A stretch of DNA of 64,000 bases, from positions 35,744 to 99,743 of the forward strand of contig CACCVU010000002.1 in assembly GCA_902549495.1 (NCBI GenBank), given 5' to 3'. This document shows, one piece after another, positions 6,419 through 43,908 of this stretch. The notes under the pieces are model-generated. The model ran no database searches and was not told where the DNA came from. It saw only the letters and a program-made list of their open reading frames with translations. Numbering within the stretch: position 1 is the first letter of the stretch; each line of letters opens with the position of its first letter. This DNA is from an uncultured Pelagibacteraceae bacterium (lineage in GTDB: Bacteria > Pseudomonadota > Alphaproteobacteria > Pelagibacterales > Pelagibacteraceae). The position numbers and the translations under genes are program-made.

Positions 6419-7711
6419 ATGAAAAAATACTTAGGATACTTTCTAGCAGGTACAGCCATTTACTTTGGCTTCGCGGGTCTTGGATATGCTGAGACTACAG
6501 TGTCTGCAGAAGTACAATACATTTTTAATACCCTATTATTTTTAATGTCAGGTTTCTTGGTCATGTGGATGGCCGCAGGTTTCGCAATGTTAGAGTCAGG
6601 ATTAGTAACATCAAAATCTGTATCAGCAATCTGCGCAAAAAATATAGGTTTATATTCAATCGCCGGAGTAATGTTCTGGTTGGTTGGTTACAATTTAGCT
6701 TACGGTATCCCAGAGGGCGGATATATTGGTTCATTTACACCATGGAGTGACAATTCATCATTAGAGACAGGATATTCTGATGGATCTGATTGGTTTTTCC
6801 AAATGGTGTTCTGTGCAACTACAATGTCAATCGTATCTGGTACATTAGCTGAAAGAATTAAGATCTGGCCATTTTTCTTATTTGCCGCAATTTTAACTGG
6901 AATTATCTATCCAATTTCAATGGGTTGGCAGTGGGGTGGCGGATGGTTATCGGTAGCTGGATTCTCAGACTTTGCTGGTTCAACATTAGTACATGCTGCT
7001 GGAGGAGCTGCGGCTCTTGCAGGTGCAATCGTATTAGGTGCTAGAAGTGGCAGATTCTCTGGAAAAGGCGAGGCTAAGCCGATGGCACCATTTGCTGCAT
7101 CATCAATTCCGTTAGCAACATTAGGAGTATTTATACTTTGGTTAGGTTGGTTCGGATTTAATGGTGGATCTCAGTTAGCTTCTGGAACGCTAGAAGACGT
7201 TTCAGCAGTAGCAACAATTTATATCAATACGAACTTAGCTGCAGGTGGTGGTGTATTAGCTGCTGCAACAGTATCAAGAGTGATTGGTGGAAAAACTGAC
7301 GTTGTAATGATGCTAAACGGCGCAATTGCTGGATTAGTAGGTATTACCGCAGAACCATTAACACCAAGTCCTCTAGCTGCAATCTTTATTGGAGCAATAG
7401 CTGGAGTATTAATGTACTTCTCAACAAAACTATTGTTCAAAATGAAAATTGATGACGTAGTTGGAGCCATCCCAGCACACTTAGTAGCTGGAGTATGGGG
7501 TACATTAGCAGTGCCATTAACAAATGGAGATGTTACTTTCGGAGCACAATTCTTAGGAACTATCTCAGTTGTGGTATTCGTATTCATAGTCTCATTTATT
7601 GTTTTCCAAATTATAAAAAGTACAATTGGATTAAGAATAAGCAAGGAAGCTGAAAGACTAGGAACTGACAAAGCAGAAGTCGGTGTAATAGCTTACGGTA
7701 TTAGAGACTAA
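6419..7711 (+). CDS. amtB: Ammonium transporter (Amt family), copy 1
   Basis: Signal-like N-terminus; FAMLESGLV, GGWLSVAGFSDFAGSTLVHAAGGAAALAGAIVLGAR, DDVVGAIPAHLVAGVWGTLAV. Confidence 0.96.
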   Translation: MKKYLGYFLAGTAIYFGFAGLGYAETTVSAEVQYIFNTLLFLMSGFLVMWMAAGFAMLESGLVTSKSVSAICAKNIGLYSIAGVMFWLVGYNLAYGIPEGGYIGSFTPWSDNSSLETGYSDGSDWFFQMVFCATTMSIVSGTLAERIKIWPFFLFAAILTGIIYPISMGWQWGGGWLSVAGFSDFAGSTLVHAAGGAAALAGAIVLGARSGRFSGKGEAKPMAPFAASSIPLATLGVFILWLGWFGFNGGSQLASGTLEDVSAVATIYINTNLAAGGGVLAAATVSRVIGGKTDVVMMLNGAIAGLVGITAEPLTPSPLAAIFIGAIAGVLMYFSTKLLFKMKIDDVVGAIPAHLVAGVWGTLAVPLTNGDVTFGAQFLGTISVVVFVFIVSFIVFQIIKSTIGLRISKEAERLGTDKAEVGVIAYGIRD

Positions 7712-7746
7712 TTAAAATTCCCTCCCTCGTTAGTTGGGAAAAATTA

Positions 7747-7780
7747 TAAGGCCTGGTTCGGTTCCCCCGTCCAGGCCTTA
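7747..7780 (+). terminator. Terminator hairpin between the two amt genes
   Basis: AAGGCCTGG...CCAGGCCTTATTTATTTT. Confidence 0.8.
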
Positions 7781-7865
7781 TTTATTTTACAAAGCTCGTA
7801 TGCATTAAATTCATGCTTCAAATCTCTGTAATTTGATATCAAGTCTTCAAAAAAAAGGGGGAAAC

Positions 7866-9155
7866 ATGAAAAAATTAACTTTCATTTTATTAGGTTGTAT
7901 TTCTGCTTTACTAATTAGCTCTCAAAGCTTTGCAGAAACTACAATGTCTCAAGAAGGACAATATATTTTTAACTCGTTAGGGTTTTATATAGGTGGAGTG
8001 CTAGTAGCTTTCATGGCAGCAGGTTTCTGCATGCTTGAGAGTGGATTAGTTACAACAAAAAGTGTGTCGACAATTGCCGCGAAAAATATAGGTAAATTCG
8101 CTATATGTTCACTGATATTTTTCTTAGTAGGCTATAATTTGGCTTATGGCGTGCCGGAGGGAGGCTACGTGGGCTCATTTACGATTTGGACAGACTCATC
8201 TGACGCTGAAACAGGTTATTCAGGTTATTCAGACTGGTTCTTTCAAACTATGTTCGTGTGCGCGACAGCTTCCATAGTGTCTGGAGCAGTTGCAGAAAGA
8301 ATTAAGATCTGGCCATTCTTTATTTTTGCAGCAATTATGGCAGGCGTGATTTACCCAATTTCTATGGGTTGGCAGTGGGGTGGCGGCTGGTTAGCTAGCG
8401 GCGGATTCTCTGATTTTGCTGGATCAACTTTAGTTCATGGATGCGGAGGTGCCGCGGCATTAGCTGGAGTAATTGTTTTAGGAGCTCGTGAGGGAAGATT
8501 TGGCAGAAGAGGTGAAAAGAGATCAATGCAACCTTTTGCGGCTTCAAGTATTCCATTAGTAACACTCGGAACTTTTTTGCTTTGGTTTGGATGGTTTGGT
8601 TTTAATGGCTTTAGTCAATTAGCTATGGGTACTTTTGACGATGTTAATGCAATATCAAAAATTGCAGTAAATACTCATTTAGCAGGTGCAGCAGGGACTT
8701 TTACTGGTGCTGCGATTACAAGATTGATTGGTGGAAAAACTGATATTGTAATGATGCTTAATGGTGCGTTAGCCGGATTAGTTGCTATAACAGCAGAACC
8801 TTTAACACCTGGTCCAATTACAGCTATGTTCATTGGTTCCATAGGAGCAATTATAATGTATTTCGGTACAAAAATGTTAGAGAGCTATGGTTTGGATGAT
8901 GTAGTTGGTGCCATTCCTGTACACATGTTTGCAGGAATATTTGGAACATTAGTTGTGCCTTTAACGAATCCAGATACATCTTTTGGAACTCAATTCATTG
9001 GTACTGCATCTGTATGTATATTCAGTTTTGTTCTTTCATGGATTACCTTCAGTGTTCTTAAATCAACTATAGGATTAAGAATTAGTAAAGCTGCTGAAAA
9101 ATTAGGAACCGACAAAGCCGAAGTTGGTGTTTCAGCTTATTCTATTAGAGACTAA
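7866..9155 (+). CDS. amtB: Ammonium transporter (Amt family), copy 2
   Basis: Close paralogue of the preceding ORF; start MKKLTFILLG chosen after GGGGGAAAC. Confidence 0.95.
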   Translation: MKKLTFILLGCISALLISSQSFAETTMSQEGQYIFNSLGFYIGGVLVAFMAAGFCMLESGLVTTKSVSTIAAKNIGKFAICSLIFFLVGYNLAYGVPEGGYVGSFTIWTDSSDAETGYSGYSDWFFQTMFVCATASIVSGAVAERIKIWPFFIFAAIMAGVIYPISMGWQWGGGWLASGGFSDFAGSTLVHGCGGAAALAGVIVLGAREGRFGRRGEKRSMQPFAASSIPLVTLGTFLLWFGWFGFNGFSQLAMGTFDDVNAISKIAVNTHLAGAAGTFTGAAITRLIGGKTDIVMMLNGALAGLVAITAEPLTPGPITAMFIGSIGAIIMYFGTKMLESYGLDDVVGAIPVHMFAGIFGTLVVPLTNPDTSFGTQFIGTASVCIFSFVLSWITFSVLKSTIGLRISKAAEKLGTDKAEVGVSAYSIRD

Positions 9156-13391: not shown

Positions 13392-14519
13392 ATGAATTCA
13401 CTAGGAATTAATAAATCGAAAAAAGAAACAAAAGTAGTTGTTGCAATGTCTGGAGGCGTAGACTCGTCTGTTGTAGCCGCTCTGATGAAAGAGGAGGGTT
13501 ATGATGTTAAAGGTATTACTTTAAAACTTTATGATGATACAAAACAATCTAAAGATGGAAGACAGTGCTGTGCGGGACAAGATATAATGGATGCTAAAAG
13601 AGTCTCAGAAAAAATAAATATTGACCATGAAATTCTGTATTACCAAAAAAAATTTAAATCAGAAGTCATAGACTCTTTTATTGATAGTTATGCAGTTGGA
13701 GAAACCCCTATCCCATGCGTTCAGTGTAATCAGACTGTAAAATTTAGAGATTTATTTAAATATGCTAAAGATTTTAAAGCAGATGCATTAATTACAGGTC
13801 ACTATGTATCAAGAATTCAAAACAATGGTCATGCAAGTATGTATAGAGCTAAAGATATAAATAGAGATCAAAGCTATTTTCTGTTTAGCACAACACAAGA
13901 ACAGCTTGATTATTTGAGATTTCCTTTGGGCGAAATTGATAAATCTGAGACAAGATCCATAGCAAAAAAACTAAACTTAAATGTTGCTGATAAACCGGAT
14001 AGTCAAGATATCTGTTTTGTACCAAATGGTGATTATAGTTCAGTTATAAAAAAATATAGACCCGAGTCATTTCAAAAAGGAGACATAGTTGATCTCAATG
14101 GAGATAAAATCGGTGAACATCAAGGGATAATTAATTATACGATAGGTCAAAGAAAAGGAATAAAAATTTCAAGTGAAAAACCTCTTTACGTAATAAATAT
14201 TAATGCCAATGAGAACAAAGTTATTGTGGGAAATAAAGAAAATTTAGAAATCAAACAAATCCAACTTAGAGAATTAAATATTTTGGCAAACAAAGATGAG
14301 TTTAACGAAATTATTAATATTAAAGTTAGGTCAACAGGTAGACTTTTAAAAGCAAAAATAAAACTTGTTAAAGACTATGCTCAAGTCGAAATCTTAGATA
14401 AAGAGACTGGGATTTCACCGGGACAAGCATGTGTTTTTTATTCAAAAGATACTTTTGGGGATAAAGTTCTAGGAGGTGGCTGGATAGATAAGACTTTTAA
14501 CAATAAGTTATCCACGTAG
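13392..14519 (+). CDS. mnmA: tRNA-specific 2-thiouridylase MnmA
   Basis: [57 protein letters not shown]. Confidence 0.96.
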
Positions 14520-14574: not shown

Positions 14575-14760
14575 ATTTAATGTTTTTAATTAAGAGGCAA
14601 CTCTTAACTGGCCATTTAGGGAAAAACCGAGAGGTTCAAGCTTAAAGGGCAGAAAGGTGAACCTAGTAGCGCTAGAATAGTTCATCGGGAAGGCTTGGCG
14701 GTAGCGCCTAAAACGACGAGCCAAAACTACTAAATTTCTGGGCGAAAGCCTAGAAATTTA
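14575..14760 (+). ncRNA. Candidate structured non-coding RNA of unassigned family
   Basis: About 185 nt, locally GC-richer and non-coding, after a TATAGTAT promoter-like element; hairpins TAAGAG-GCAA-CTCTTA (14591-14606), AACC-GAGA-GGTT, GGTTCA...TGAACC, and a terminal TAAATTTCTGGGC-GAAA-GCCTAGAAATTTA (14731-14760). Boundaries and strand are estimates. Confidence 0.5.
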
Positions 14761-23760: not shown

Positions 23761-23855
23761 TAATTTTTAACCTCAAGGTTGTAGACATTATGCATACCTG
23801 TAATCTAATTTTAACACAATTAAAGTAATCTATATTTTGAGAAATTAAAACTATT

Positions 23856-24239
23856 ATGAGAAAACATTATTTAATTCTTGCAGTTTTTTTGTGCATGAGC
23901 TCAGCCTTTGCTGCAGGACATATAACAAAAGCTCAAAAAGAAAAAACAATAGAGTGTTTAGGTCACTACAGTGCAACAGCTGTTTTACCAGCTGAGACTA
24001 TCGAAGTTAAAAACATGGAATTAGCTTTGGCTTCAGTAAAAGTTATAAGAGAATACCTTTCATCCGAGGGTGTTAAAGATGATGAGATGAACAAAGGCAT
24101 GAATGCTTATGTAGACAAAGTTTATGGCAAGCCTTTTGATAAATCTAAAAATGGTGAGTGTAATAAATTTATTTATAAGCAAATTAAAGGTTCAGAAGAA
24201 AAAATCGAAAAATTATCTAGAACGATTTATGCAGGCTAA
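23856..24239 (+). CDS. Secreted hypothetical protein
   Basis: Signal peptide MRKHYLILAVFLCMSSAFAAG, no recognised family. Confidence 0.6.
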   Translation: MRKHYLILAVFLCMSSAFAAGHITKAQKEKTIECLGHYSATAVLPAETIEVKNMELALASVKVIREYLSSEGVKDDEMNKGMNAYVDKVYGKPFDKSKNGECNKFIYKQIKGSEEKIEKLSRTIYAG

Positions 24240-24241
24240 AA

Positions 24242-24529
24242 ATGAGCGGATACGTTATAGCTAATATAGATGTAAAAAATCCTGAAGCTTATAAAGAATA
24301 TATTGGTAAAGTTGTGCCTACAGTTCAAAAATTCGGAGGAGAATACCTTGTACGTGCCGGTGAGTACAAAGTTATAGATGGTGAGTGGAAATACCCTAGA
24401 ACAGTAGTAATTAAATTTCCAACTTATGAAAAAGCTTTAGAGTGGTATGACTCTAAGGAATACAAACCAGTAAAACCTATTCGATTAGCAAACTCAGTTG
24501 CTAATGGAATAATAATTAGAGGAGTTTAA
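24242..24529 (+). CDS. DUF1330 family protein
   Basis: GYVIANIDVKNPEAYKEYIGKVVPTVQKFGGEYLVRAGEYKVIDGEW..RTVVIKFPTYEKALEWYDSKEYKP. Confidence 0.92.
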   Translation: MSGYVIANIDVKNPEAYKEYIGKVVPTVQKFGGEYLVRAGEYKVIDGEWKYPRTVVIKFPTYEKALEWYDSKEYKPVKPIRLANSVANGIIIRGV

Positions 24530-24542
24530 ATAAAAGTAAACA

Positions 24543-24833
24543 ATGGAAAAAGAAATGTTAGTACATCTTAAATTTAAAGAAGGCAAATTAGAAACTTTCA
24601 CGAAATGGATGCAATCAGATGAGGGTATGAGTGTTAGAAAAAGTGTTGCATATCCGGAAAAAACTGTTGGTGCTATGATCCCAGATAAAAGCGGAATGCT
24701 ATTTAAAGTTAATGTTCATAACGAAGCAGGAATGAAAGAGTTTGTAACTGGAAATAACTCCACAGCTAAAGCAATTTATGCTGAGTGTGTAGAAAGTGCT
24801 CAGTTATTTGAACTATCTAAAATAAACCTATAA
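24543..24833 (+). CDS. Small ABM-like (dimeric alpha/beta barrel) hypothetical protein
   Basis: MLVHLKFKEGKLETFTKWMQSDEG...; short beta-alpha-beta pattern. Confidence 0.5.
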   Translation: MEKEMLVHLKFKEGKLETFTKWMQSDEGMSVRKSVAYPEKTVGAMIPDKSGMLFKVNVHNEAGMKEFVTGNNSTAKAIYAECVESAQLFELSKINL

Positions 24834-24843
24834 AGGAGAAAAA

Positions 24844-25131
24844 ATGAAAAACTACATGGTAACACACACTTTCAAATCTGCTGAAATGAAAGCTAAATTT
24901 ACAGAAACAGTGGCTTCTATGAAAATGGAAGATATTGTTAAAAGTATGAAAAGTGACAATGCTGCTTGTCAAATGACTTGGAATACACCGGGCGATACAA
25001 TGGAAATGTTTTGCTGGTGGAAAGGAAAAGATGAGCAAGCAATTATTAATCAATTAGGTCAAATGAATGATTTTTTCACTCCTCATAAATTTGTTGAGTG
25101 CACAGATCAAGTCATGGACTATAACGCATAG
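24844..25131 (+). CDS. Small hypothetical protein, possible ferredoxin-like fold
   Basis: MKNYMVTHTFKSAEMKAKFTETV..., preceded by AAAGGAGAAAAA (SD). Confidence 0.5.
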   Translation: MKNYMVTHTFKSAEMKAKFTETVASMKMEDIVKSMKSDNAACQMTWNTPGDTMEMFCWWKGKDEQAIINQLGQMNDFFTPHKFVECTDQVMDYNA

Positions 25132-25138
25132 GATATTT

Positions 25139-25555
25139 ATGATAGACAAATTTGGAAACGCATTTTATTTAATTATTTACTTAGCACATTTTATTATAGT
25201 TGGTAGCTACGCTTACCAATTGGTATTTGATACTAAAAAATTTCTTAAGGGTAGAGGGGTAGATAAAACTGCAACTTTAATTACAAGATTTGCAGGCTCA
25301 TTCATGATTGCCACTGTTCTAATGGCAATATATATCGCTTTTATTAGATCAGGTGGTGTAGAAGCTACTTGGGCCTTCTTTAACTTAGTTTTTATAATGA
25401 ATGTTTCGATATTAATTGTAAATTTTTATACATTAAAAATTGACAAAACAGGTTTAACTAAAAAAACTAGAAACGATGGAATATATGCTCCACTCGTTCT
25501 TGTTATTATCAGTGCAATTCTTTGTTACGGTTTGGCTGATAAAATTTACGTTTAA
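25139..25555 (+). CDS. Small integral membrane protein
   Basis: Four hydrophobic segments from MIDKFGNAFYLIIYLAHFIIVGSYAYQLVFDTKKFLKGRG; shorter start preferred over track start. Confidence 0.6.
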   Translation: MIDKFGNAFYLIIYLAHFIIVGSYAYQLVFDTKKFLKGRGVDKTATLITRFAGSFMIATVLMAIYIAFIRSGGVEATWAFFNLVFIMNVSILIVNFYTLKIDKTGLTKKTRNDGIYAPLVLVIISAILCYGLADKIYV

Positions 25556-25563
25556 GGAGATAC

Positions 25564-25857
25564 ATGGCAAAGTTTATGAATATTGTTAGATGCAAAGTGA
25601 AATCATCTGGCAGAGAAGAATATTTGAAAAAAATAGATGAGATGCCAAAATTCGATGGGCAGATTTCAGCTAAATATGTTGAAACGAAACCTAATGAATT
25701 TTTTATGTTAGGTGAATGGAATTCTGAAGATGACATTGCTAAAGCAAGATCAAAAATGATTGCATTCTTGGATACACTTCGGCACACTTTGGAAGAACTG
25801 TCACCAGATTTGGGAGTAACTGATCCTCATTCTGGTACAGTTGTAATTGAGAAATAG
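25564..25857 (+). CDS. ABM-domain-like small protein
   Basis: MAKFMNIVRCKVKSSGREEYLKKIDEM...FFMLGEWNSEDDIAKARSKMIAFLDTLRHTLEELSPDLGVTDPHSGTVV. Confidence 0.6.
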   Translation: MAKFMNIVRCKVKSSGREEYLKKIDEMPKFDGQISAKYVETKPNEFFMLGEWNSEDDIAKARSKMIAFLDTLRHTLEELSPDLGVTDPHSGTVVIEK

Positions 25858-25870
25858 GAAAGGGGTAACA

Positions 25871-26194
25871 ATGGCAAAATTTTATACACTTGGGTGTTAC
25901 ACAGCTAAAGGTCTTGGAGGATTTGTAAGTAATCCATCTACTGACAGAAAAGCTGCAACATCTGCACTTGCTGCTTCTGTGGGAGCTAAAGTAACTCAAT
26001 ACTCAGGCCTTAGAGGAAAATATGATTTTATGGCAGTGATTGAAGGAACTTTTGAACAAGCTGCTGCAGCTGCAATGGTTGCTGTTTCTAGTGGTGCTGT
26101 TTCAGATTTTACAATTTTAGAAGATGTAAATCTTAATGAAATAGCTAAAACTGCACAGAAAATGGCATCATCATACAAAGAGCCAGGAAAATAA
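25871..26194 (+). CDS. GYD domain-containing protein
   Basis: YTLGCYTAKGLGGFVSNPSTDRKAATSALAASVGAKVTQYSGLRGKYDFMAVIEG resembles the GYD family; start at MAKFYTL. Confidence 0.72.
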   Translation: MAKFYTLGCYTAKGLGGFVSNPSTDRKAATSALAASVGAKVTQYSGLRGKYDFMAVIEGTFEQAAAAAMVAVSSGAVSDFTILEDVNLNEIAKTAQKMASSYKEPGK

Positions 26195-26902
26195 TTATTT
26201 TCTGTAGCTAATACATTTTAAGGTATCAGTGAATTTTATTTGATTTTTATATTTAGATTTTATTTCACTGATACCAAATTTTATTTCTTTATTACTCATA
26301 TTTAATAAGCATGAAATATATCTCTCTTTGATCATTCTAATGTATTTTTGTTTAGAGATGTTTACTTTAAAATTAAAGTTAGTATAGCTTATTTTTTTTA
26401 AGTTATTTTTGATTATCTTAAATAAAACTTCGTCTCTTTTTAAACTTTTTTCTAAATTTTCCTTCATTTTTTTAAAACAAGGAATACTATTATTTTTTGT
26501 TTTTAGTGAAAAAATTAGTATTTTGCCATTAGGATTTAAACTTTTTTTTGCAAGGTTTAGAAGGTTATTTAGCTTTGTTTTTGTAAAAAAATGAATAGTT
26601 TGTTTGATTAAGATTAGATCATATTTTTCTTTTGTCTTTAAATATTTTAAGGCATCAATTTTCTTAAATACAATATTCTTTTTTACATCCTTGTTTGCAA
26701 TAATATCAATTCCTATGGGCTTCTTTCTAAATTTATATTTTTTTTGAAGGGCGCTAATAATATTCGCTCTTCCACATCCAATATCCAATATTTTTGTATC
26801 TTTATTAAGATTAATTTTCTTTTTAAGAAATTTATTAAATTGGGAGATATAAGGTTTAGATGATAACCAGGTTTTATTATCCCAGTTTTTAAGTTTTTTC
26901 AT
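26195..26902 (-). CDS. Class I SAM-dependent methyltransferase
   Basis: TKILDIGCGRANIISAL motif I. Confidence 0.8.
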   Translation of the reverse strand: MKKLKNWDNKTWLSSKPYISQFNKFLKKKINLNKDTKILDIGCGRANIISALQKKYKFRKKPIGIDIIANKDVKKNIVFKKIDALKYLKTKEKYDLILIKQTIHFFTKTKLNNLLNLAKKSLNPNGKILIFSLKTKNNSIPCFKKMKENLEKSLKRDEVLFKIIKNNLKKISYTNFNFKVNISKQKYIRMIKERYISCLLNMSNKEIKFGISEIKSKYKNQIKFTDTLKCISYRK

Positions 26903-38897: not shown

Positions 38898-39776
38898 ATG
38901 ATGAAAAAAAGAAAGCTAGGGATAATTGGTGGTAGCGGTCTTTATAAAATGGAGGGTTTTGAAAAAACTAATTGGAAAAAAATTAATACTCCTTGGGGAA
39001 AACCTTCAGATAAAATCTTAATTGCAAGTATTGGAAAAGAGGAAATTTGTTTTATTCCAAGACACTCACGAGGTCATAAAATTAATCCAACAAATATTAA
39101 TTATAGGGCAAACATTGATGCAATGAAGCAACTCGGTGTTACAGATATAATCTCAGTATCAGCAGTTGGTTCATTAAAAGAAAATCTTGAACCAGGAAAA
39201 TTTATAGTAGTGGATCAATTTATTGATAGAACATTTTCAAGAATAAAAACATTCTTTAATGAAGAAATAGTTGCTCATGTTTCAATGGCTAAACCCACTA
39301 GTTCTGGACTTTCAAATTGTTGTGAAGCTGCGTTAAAGAAGTTGAATATAAGCCATCAAGTCGGAGGAACATATGTAGTAATGGAAGGCCCTCAATTTTC
39401 TACACTTGCAGAATCAAATTTATATAGATCTTGGGGAGCTGATGTAATTGGCATGACTAATATGCCTGAAGCTAAATTAGCTAGAGAGGCAGAAATTAGA
39501 TATAGTACAGTAGCAATGGTAACAGACTACGATTGTTGGCATCCTGATCATGATGAAGTTGATGTTAGCATGGTTGTCCAAACTTTAATGAAAAATGCAG
39601 CAAATGCACAAAATATGATTAAAGAAATTATAAAAACATTCAGAAACTATTCAGTAGAAAAAGATCCTGCGAACGACTGTTTAAATGTAGCTATAATTAC
39701 AGATCCAAAGTTAAGAACAAAAAAAACAATTAAAAAATTAAAAACTATAGCTGGAAGAGTTTTAAGCAAAAAATAA
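38898..39776 (+). CDS. mtnP: S-methyl-5'-thioadenosine phosphorylase
   Basis: KLGIIGGSGLYKMEGF..., FIPRHSRGHKINPTNINYRANI, GPQFSTLAESNLYRSWGADVIGMTNMPEAKLAREAE. Confidence 0.95.
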   Translation: MMKKRKLGIIGGSGLYKMEGFEKTNWKKINTPWGKPSDKILIASIGKEEICFIPRHSRGHKINPTNINYRANIDAMKQLGVTDIISVSAVGSLKENLEPGKFIVVDQFIDRTFSRIKTFFNEEIVAHVSMAKPTSSGLSNCCEAALKKLNISHQVGGTYVVMEGPQFSTLAESNLYRSWGADVIGMTNMPEAKLAREAEIRYSTVAMVTDYDCWHPDHDEVDVSMVVQTLMKNAANAQNMIKEIIKTFRNYSVEKDPANDCLNVAIITDPKLRTKKTIKKLKTIAGRVLSKK

Positions 39777-39781
39777 TCTTA

Positions 39782-40228
39782 ATGCCAACGTATACGGTAA
39801 AATATTCAAATATTAATCTTTCTCAAAAACAAAAAAATTCTATTGCAAACGATATAACAAATACTCATAGTAAATTTACCGGTGCCAACACTTTCTTTGC
39901 CCAAGTAATATTTCAAAAAAATCAAAAAAAATCTCATTTCATGGGCGGTAAATTAGTAAAAACTAAAGAAATTTTCTTAAACGGGCAAATAAGAGCTGGG
40001 AGAACATTAAAAGTGAAAAAACAATTAATTTTAGGTCTAAGAAAAATTTTGATTGAAAACACAAAGTTGCAGAGTGATTTTGTTTGGGTTTACTTACAAG
40101 ATCTATTACCGGATCAAATGATTGAGTATGGAGAAGTATTGCCTAAATCAGGACAGGAAAAAAAATGGTTTAACTCGCTATCACCAAGTTTAAGAAAAAG
40201 ATTAAAAAAAATGGAAAAAAGTAAATGA
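39782..40228 (+). CDS. Tautomerase-superfamily-like protein
   Basis: N-terminal Pro after Met (MPTYTVKYSNINLSQKQKNSIANDIT), cis-CaaD-like layout. Confidence 0.65.
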   Translation: MPTYTVKYSNINLSQKQKNSIANDITNTHSKFTGANTFFAQVIFQKNQKKSHFMGGKLVKTKEIFLNGQIRAGRTLKVKKQLILGLRKILIENTKLQSDFVWVYLQDLLPDQMIEYGEVLPKSGQEKKWFNSLSPSLRKRLKKMEKSK

Positions 40229-41295
40229 AAATAGAAGGAAATTCATACAAAACAATTTGGTTTGAGAGCAATTTAGTAAAAATCATTGATCAAACAAAAC
40301 TGCCTCATCAGTTTATTATTAAAGATTTAAAAACTGTTAAAGATGCAATAAATGCCATTAAAACTATGGAGGTGAGAGGTGCTCCATTAATTGGTGCAAC
40401 CGCAGCCTATGGTCTAGTTTTATCTATAATTGAAAATAATGATTTATCTTTTTTAAAGAAATCTAGTGAGGAGTTAATTGCGTCAAGACCCACTGCAATT
40501 AATCTTAAGTGGGCAGTGGATAGAATGATGAAAAAGTTATCTGGAGTAAACGATAAAGATATCTTGAAAATAGCTCTAGACGAAGCAAAAGCAATTACAG
40601 AAGAGGATGAAAAATTTTGTAAAAATATCGGCTTGAATGGTCTTAAAATTATCGAAGACATTGCTAATAAAAAAAAAGATACAGTAAATATTTTAACCCA
40701 TTGTAATGCAGGATGGTTAGCTACTATTGACTGGGGGACAGCTACTTCACCAATATATCACGCACATCAAAAAGGGATTAAAGTACATGTTTGGGTTGAT
40801 GAGACAAGACCTCGAAACCAAGGAGCTAACTTAACTTCTTATGAATTAAACGAAGAAGGAATCTCAAACACAGTAATCACAGATAACGCTGGCGGTATAT
40901 TAATGCAAAGAGGACAGGTAGATATGTGTATAGTTGGAACCGATAGAACTTTATCAAACGGTGACGTTTGTAATAAAATAGGAACATATTTAAAAGCTTT
41001 ATCTGCTAAAGATAACAATATTCCTTTTTATGTAGCCTTGCCAAGTTCAACTATAGACTGGAATATCAAAGATCATAAACAAATCCCCATCGAAGAAAGA
41101 AATTCAGAAGAGCTATCACATGTTGAGGGAATAGATGAAAATAATGAAATTAAAAAAGTGAGAATTTACCCACAAAAAAGCAAGTCATTAAACCTAGCCT
41201 TCGATGTGACACCTGCTAAACTCGTAACAGGACTAATAACAGAAAAAGGCATTTGTGAAGCATCAGAAAAAGGATTGAAAGGATTATTTAAATGA
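40225..41295 (+). CDS. mtnA: S-methyl-5-thioribose-1-phosphate isomerase
   Basis: MEVRGAPLIGATAAYGL, HCNAGWLATIDWGTATSPIYHAHQKGIKVHVWVDETRPRNQGANLTSYEL. Confidence 0.95.
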   Translation: MKIEGNSYKTIWFESNLVKIIDQTKLPHQFIIKDLKTVKDAINAIKTMEVRGAPLIGATAAYGLVLSIIENNDLSFLKKSSEELIASRPTAINLKWAVDRMMKKLSGVNDKDILKIALDEAKAITEEDEKFCKNIGLNGLKIIEDIANKKKDTVNILTHCNAGWLATIDWGTATSPIYHAHQKGIKVHVWVDETRPRNQGANLTSYELNEEGISNTVITDNAGGILMQRGQVDMCIVGTDRTLSNGDVCNKIGTYLKALSAKDNNIPFYVALPSSTIDWNIKDHKQIPIEERNSEELSHVEGIDENNEIKKVRIYPQKSKSLNLAFDVTPAKLVTGLITEKGICEASEKGLKGLFK

Positions 41296-42867: not shown

Positions 42868-43908
42868 ATGATTAAAGTTGGTGAGCATATTACCATTGAT
42901 TTTCTTGGTGTTAAAAAAGACTATTCACCTGAATTTTACGAAAAAGTTATTTACAAAATAGCGAAAGCTGCAAAAGTTGAAATTCTTAATGTAGCCTCTC
43001 ATAGATTTGAACCTCAAGGTTTTACTTTAGTTGCTTTATTGTCAGAGAGTCATTTTAGTTTTCATACATTTCCTGAAAGGGGCGTAATAAGCTTTGATTT
43101 TTTTACTTGTGGAAAAGTAAATCCTAAAGTTGCTCTTAAAATTTTAAGAAAAGAGATAGATCACAAAAGGGTAGTGACCAATGCTTTTGATAGAAGTAGC
43201 ATAGGTCTTTATGATGATATTTACAGCACGCCAGGACAAAAGAAATTTTATGTTGTAAAAGATGTTTTAGAAAAATTTACTTCTAAAGTTGGCCAATTTG
43301 TTGAAATAATGGATTTAGAAGAATTCGGACACGCTTTGTTTATTGATCATGAAATTCAAGTAGCTGAAAAAGATGAAAAAATTTATAGCTCAAATTTTTT
43401 CAAATCTAGTTATGATTTAAGTAAAAAAAATAACAATGTTGCGATTATTGGTGGAGGAGATGGAGGAGTGGCTAGGGCATGTTTAGAGAATAATTCAAAC
43501 TACATCGATTGGTTTGAATTAGATCCTGAGATTGTACATGTTTGCTATCGTCACTTACCAAAAGTTTGCTCAAAAGTAAAAAAAAGCAATAAAATTAAAA
43601 CGTTCTGGGGAGACGCTTTTAAAAGTATAAAAGAAATAGAGGACTCAAAATACGATAAAATTTTCGTGGATCTAAATGACGATCAATACTGTATCGACCT
43701 AGCAAAAAAAAATATGAAAGGCTTAAAAAGAATTCTTAAAAAAGGTGGCGTGATAACCGCTCAAGTTGGAAGTCAGGATAAAAAACCTAAACAAGTTGAT
43801 AACTGGTGTAAGGTTTTAGGAAAAAGCTTTGGAAACGTTAAATTATCAGGGGCTTATATCCCTAGTTTTGACTGTAAATGGAATTTTGCTTCATCTATAA
43901 TGAAGTAA
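42868..43908 (+). CDS. Fused S-adenosylmethionine decarboxylase (SpeD) - spermidine synthase-like (SpeE) protein
   Basis: N-terminal LLSESHFSFHTFPERGVISFDFFTCG (pyruvoyl-type SpeD) joined in frame to NNVAIIGGGDGGVARACLENNSNYIDWFELDPEIVHVC (SpeE). Confidence 0.88.
   Translation: MIKVGEHITIDFLGVKKDYSPEFYEKVIYKIAKAAKVEILNVASHRFEPQGFTLVALLSESHFSFHTFPERGVISFDFFTCGKVNPKVALKILRKEIDHKRVVTNAFDRSSIGLYDDIYSTPGQKKFYVVKDVLEKFTSKVGQFVEIMDLEEFGHALFIDHEIQVAEKDEKIYSSNFFKSSYDLSKKNNNVAIIGGGDGGVARACLENNSNYIDWFELDPEIVHVCYRHLPKVCSKVKKSNKIKTFWGDAFKSIKEIEDSKYDKIFVDLNDDQYCIDLAKKNMKGLKRILKKGGVITAQVGSQDKKPKQVDNWCKVLGKSFGNVKLSGAYIPSFDCKWNFASSIMK

Follow-up and report, generated by a model that had tools for sequence, protein, structure and literature searches.

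A mix-and-match operon of small barrel-type proteins around a secreted and a membrane protein in SAR11 genomes

As listed in Table 1, it was found that seven plus-strand genes, here called A to G, are packed into positions 23856-26194 of the window (the whole stretch of 64,000 nucleotides analysed, from a Pelagibacteraceae/SAR11 genome that is 57.7% complete). The operon belongs to an undescribed mix-and-match family of small-barrel clusters around a secreted protein and a membrane protein. Since these families are found again, in matching order, in many genomes and the genes are under purifying selection, the seven-gene arrangement is more than chance. The tight same-strand packing reported in a first-pass annotation was borne out by the ORF listing; all the ORFs are present, and the gaps from A to G are 2, 13, 10, 7, 8, and 13 nt in order. 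The genes are probably co-transcribed as one operon. A methyltransferase-like gene in the opposite orientation (26195-26902) directly abuts the end of G.

Table 1. Positions of the seven genes and of the upstream element in the window
Feature	Position	Strand	Basis
Promoter/operator-like element	23779-23798	+	TTGTAGACANNNTGCATACC, conserved, upstream of A
A, secreted all-helical protein, 127 aa	23856-24239	+	Sec-type signal MRKHYLILAVFLCMSSAFA
B, DUF1330 protein	24242-24529	+	PF07045, 7.2e-31
C, 96 aa, predicted dimeric alpha/beta-barrel fold	24543-24833	+	AlphaFold2 and Foldseek
D, 95 aa, probable SCO4226-like ferredoxin-like fold	24844-25131	+	Sub-threshold PF14026
E, 138 aa, four hydrophobic segments (inner membrane)	25139-25555	+	No passing Pfam family
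F, 97 aa, ABM-like	25564-25857	+	PF03992 below cut-off
G, 107 aa, GYD-domain protein	25871-26194	+	PF08734, 1.1e-10

Are the seven genes kept together in related genomes? I gathered loci around E in diverse genera and around C by a pattern search, and the module families were mapped by tblastn. Ninety-nine loci have at least three module families (some share a genome, and many were chosen for having C). These loci fall into 42 architectures; 621 of the 627 module-gene neighbours are on the same strand with a median gap of 12 nt, and the pairwise gene-order concordance is 92%. Thus, the proposal that the genes are conserved together holds in SAR11, where some members are optional. The cluster sits mainly at two chromosomal locations, one after cysE-cysK and the other between an ECH/ADH gene and a methyltransferase gene. 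In the genus of the window, the usual set is A-B-C-D-E-F-G, often plus a second GYD gene, while at the cysE-cysK site the set A-(L-K)-C-(H)-D-T-E-B-S is typical, with DUF2798 and SMR genes after it. The optional members include SnoaL_2/DUF4440 (SnoaL/NTF2-like) proteins, cupins, DUF3764 proteins, the secreted proteins L and H, the protein K, some members of which are secreted, as well as DSBA, DUF2798, and SMR proteins. An apparent link between one A subtype and gene D was discarded as an artefact; the gene caller had often overlooked D, owing to an antisense ORF or the long E ORF, and the tblastn mapping removed the link.

The median dN/dS is 0.03-0.08 across all seven genes, and that of the neighbouring methyltransferase gene (0.165) is above all of them. 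Thus, the seven genes encode functional proteins and are neither decaying nor in an arms race. Codon adaptation was rejected as a proxy for expression, as it does not discriminate in this genome.

The first-pass annotation had assigned B to DUF1330 and G to the GYD family, and both assignments proved correct, lying above the curated Pfam cut-offs (106.9 bits against 23 for B; 41.8 bits against 31.4 for G). B is a clear member of the DUF1330 family and has solved homologues (2fiu, 3.4e-15; 3lo3, 9.9e-11), although an operon of this family with C, D, and E was not found described in the literature searched. A second GYD paralogue is present in 15 of the 46 distinct relatives, often in tandem. 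No Pfam family was found for C in a profile search. Its AlphaFold2 model, built from seven relatives (pLDDT 94.0), runs strand-helix-helix-strand-strand-helix-helix-strand and has a ferredoxin-like monomer fold, with 13 PDB matches at E ≤ 0.001 to ABM-type and other ferredoxin-like barrels. The best Foldseek matches are ABM/SchA-like proteins, LsrG, and olivetolic acid cyclase, and there are others to NIPSNAP proteins and WhiE-ORFI; the ABM-type, LsrG, olivetolic acid cyclase, and NIPSNAP structures are all dimeric alpha/beta barrels. C is therefore predicted with high confidence to have the fold of the dimeric alpha/beta barrels. Its predicted fold is the same as that of the ABM/LsrG/SnoaB/olivetolic acid cyclase-type barrels, but it has no Pfam ABM sequence match. 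As for its distribution, 515 stretches encoding C were found in the genome contig collection, and the best 80 of the 515 are all from SAR11, the closest of them being 99% identical (SAR11 isolate record AG-920-C13). Apart from the genome of the window, none of 349 sampled Pseudomonadota genomes gave a match to C, and a plasmid search gave none either.

D scores 17.3 bits against the SCO4226-like family (PF14026, cut-off 28.5), which is the best, sub-threshold match in four of the five D members. Its invariant residues are C42, W46, C57, W58, W59, H81, and C86, and a SCO4226-like ferredoxin-like fold is probable. For F, which was labelled ABM-like, there is a weak sequence similarity to the ABM family (PF03992), but the score of 16.3 bits is under the cut-off of 23.1. 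PDB sequence searches with D, F, G, T, and other barrel members yielded nothing useful. The dimeric ferredoxin-like fold that the annotation ascribed to several members is thus upheld for C by its model, for B by 2fiu and 3lo3, and for G by the GYD family, while D and F are sub-threshold and A is all-helical. As a C model resembling known dimeric barrels shows no unrelated fold, the idea of a common fold also stands for this previously uncharacterised member. Since DUF1330 and ABM genes also occur elsewhere in SAR11 genomes, single families are not diagnostic of the cluster.

The secreted protein A has no Pfam family by profile search. An alignment of relatives revealed two invariant cysteines (C34 and C102). 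The all-helical model (pLDDT 87.5) has no PDB structure match at E ≤ 0.001, and A is limited to SAR11 among 289 genomes of the class. The membrane protein E most likely starts at 25139. A longer alternative ORF opens at 25067, but it overlaps D, and the relatives begin at the position equivalent to 25139. E is present in 83 of the 146 family genomes and in 7 of the 14 genera, and also in a few other Alphaproteobacteria. It was tried as a DUF4345 protein (PF14248) and rejected, with 3 of 16 members matching at E 0.013 or worse and an hhalign probability of 1.3%. Among 40 diverse loci sampled by E, 15 had no other module gene nearby, 7 had one (often C), and 14 had two or more; in 4, E lay outside the largest run. 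The 15 loci without neighbouring module genes argue for a separate role of E. Solitary E genes lie at other sites (L031, L171 of genome G074, L020, and L023-L029), for example between a 456-aa GcvT-like gene and a Lon-N-terminal-like gene, and are 93-94% identical to the E of the window in some genomes of another genus. These results suggest that E moves between sites and has an independent role. In another alphaproteobacterial family, two divergent E paralogues are in tandem (L168, 6020-6874).

The 20-nt element TTGTAGACANNNTGCATACC lies just upstream of the first gene. It is common to the aligned sequences of the genus, while its flanks diverge. Allowing up to three mismatches, the window has one site against 0.06 expected; the element occurs once per genome in all four genomes of the same genus scanned, and once each in 60 of the 203 fetched loci. 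Loci of the cysK site have a related element, GGTT-N8-GCATACC, before A. From this pattern of sequence conservation, the element is read as a dedicated, putative promoter or operator. In cysK-site loci (e.g., L032 and L051), a palindrome (TGTAAC-N6-GTTACA) followed by Ts is also seen between the conserved element and A; it is a candidate for the cysK terminator or a leader attenuator.

What may the operon do? Tentatively, I favour the possibility that it is an accessory SAR11 operon with its own conserved promoter element, whose barrel proteins would process small molecules together with A and E. A hydrophobic or reactive small molecule might be met in the periplasm by A and at the inner membrane by E, and the cytoplasmic barrels might then bind, isomerise, or oxidise it for detoxification or catabolism. 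The small proteins B, C, D, F, and G would bind ligands or act as enzymes, probably without a cofactor. In relatives, SnoaL/NTF2-like, cupin, and DUF3764 proteins would belong to the same variable set, and members may be added or swapped singly to suit the mix of compounds. Small-molecule processing is suggested by the many small ligand-binding or cofactor-independent folds, the periplasmic and membrane partners, and the drug-type exporters found elsewhere; the optional partners (SnoaL_2, DUF4440, cupin, DUF3764, DSBA, DUF2798, and SMR) also fit small-molecule handling. A dedicated module of this kind, as the annotation had imagined it, is supported in part and is the most economical reading; the shared function, the substrate, the oxidation or detoxification chemistry, and the roles of A and E are what I infer. 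Counting against it are a gene content too variable for a single linear pathway, the score of F under the ABM cut-off, and the solitary E loci.

The variable content might instead reflect a recombination hot spot, where insertion-tolerant sites gather independent small genes on one promoter without a shared function. This is rather unlikely, although it agrees with the history of the site. In relatives, the site between the ADH or ECH-like gene and the methyltransferase gene has no cluster gene (two relatives), F alone (the sole cluster gene left in one relative), A-F-G, or the full set. Subtypes of A that are about 30% identical swap within otherwise near-identical operons; on a tree of F and G, at least nine changes over all A subtypes and six changes in the presence of the second GYD gene were counted, which are approximate as the tree support is modest. 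These partial sets, swaps, and changes fit a history of gain, loss, and exchange gene by gene rather than transfer of one block. In having a changing set of genes at a fixed syntenic position, the cluster resembles the SAR11 hypervariable regions and flexible genomic islands (PMC5069961, PMC7318151), but here the same families recur as an ordered operon. A search of the open-access literature turned up no paper that describes this cluster. The order concordance, the recurrence of the families at two separate sites, and, in another alphaproteobacterial family, relatives of N and K no more than about 5 kb from E speak against a gathering of independent genes.

It is quite improbable that the operon makes or tailors a small secreted natural product, with the SMR-type transporters encoded just after the cluster in many relatives as its exporters. 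ABM, SnoaL, and cupin proteins are enzymes typical of tailoring steps, C is similar in fold to olivetolic acid cyclase and WhiE-ORFI, and SMR genes come after the cluster in cysK-type loci; however, a scaffold-making synthase was recognised neither within the mapped clusters nor close to them, and the operon of the window has no SMR gene. A response to metal or redox stress, with D as a nickel-responsive SCO4226-type protein having a Cys/His site and A as a periplasmic disulfide protein, is improbable to the same degree. The SCO4226-like match of most D proteins, the invariant Cys, His, and Trp residues of D, and the cysteine pair of A would agree with it, but every D match is under the curated cut-off, and neither a metal transporter nor a known metal regulator was found in the cluster. 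A defence or immunity island (phage exclusion or toxin immunity) would explain a fixed site with variable content and the allele swapping of a periplasmic protein. It is very improbable, as the selection is strongly purifying and not diversifying, no PADLOC match at E ≤ 0.01 was found for any of the seven proteins, a PHROG search also gave no match, viral contigs yielded neither C nor D, and D was not found in phage records.

Within the favoured reading of small-molecule processing, a bolder version, which I consider unlikely, is a plug-in system, in which one promoter and a near-constant A/E pair would serve interchangeable cytosolic barrels that define the compounds of a strain. If so, the barrel set of each strain would tell which compounds that SAR11 strain handles. 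SAR11 is a dominant bacterial group of the ocean, and its genomes are heavily streamlined. Since many such genomes keep a multi-gene operon under strong purifying selection, the operon suggests an exchange with dissolved organic matter that has so far gone unrecognised. The strain-to-strain variation in single genes would make its substrate range testable.

Other features were noted elsewhere in the window. An IMES-2 structured RNA, a marine RNA (RF02035, 153.9 bits), lies at 14583-14724 on the plus strand, shortly after a gene ending at 14519. By eye, two ammonium-transporter-like genes of 430 and 440 aa are in tandem at 6419-9155 (plus strand). A 346-aa ORF at 42868-43908 (plus strand) resembles a fusion of S-adenosylmethionine decarboxylase and spermidine synthase, and methionine-salvage-like genes lie upstream of it at 38898-41295, both also judged by eye.
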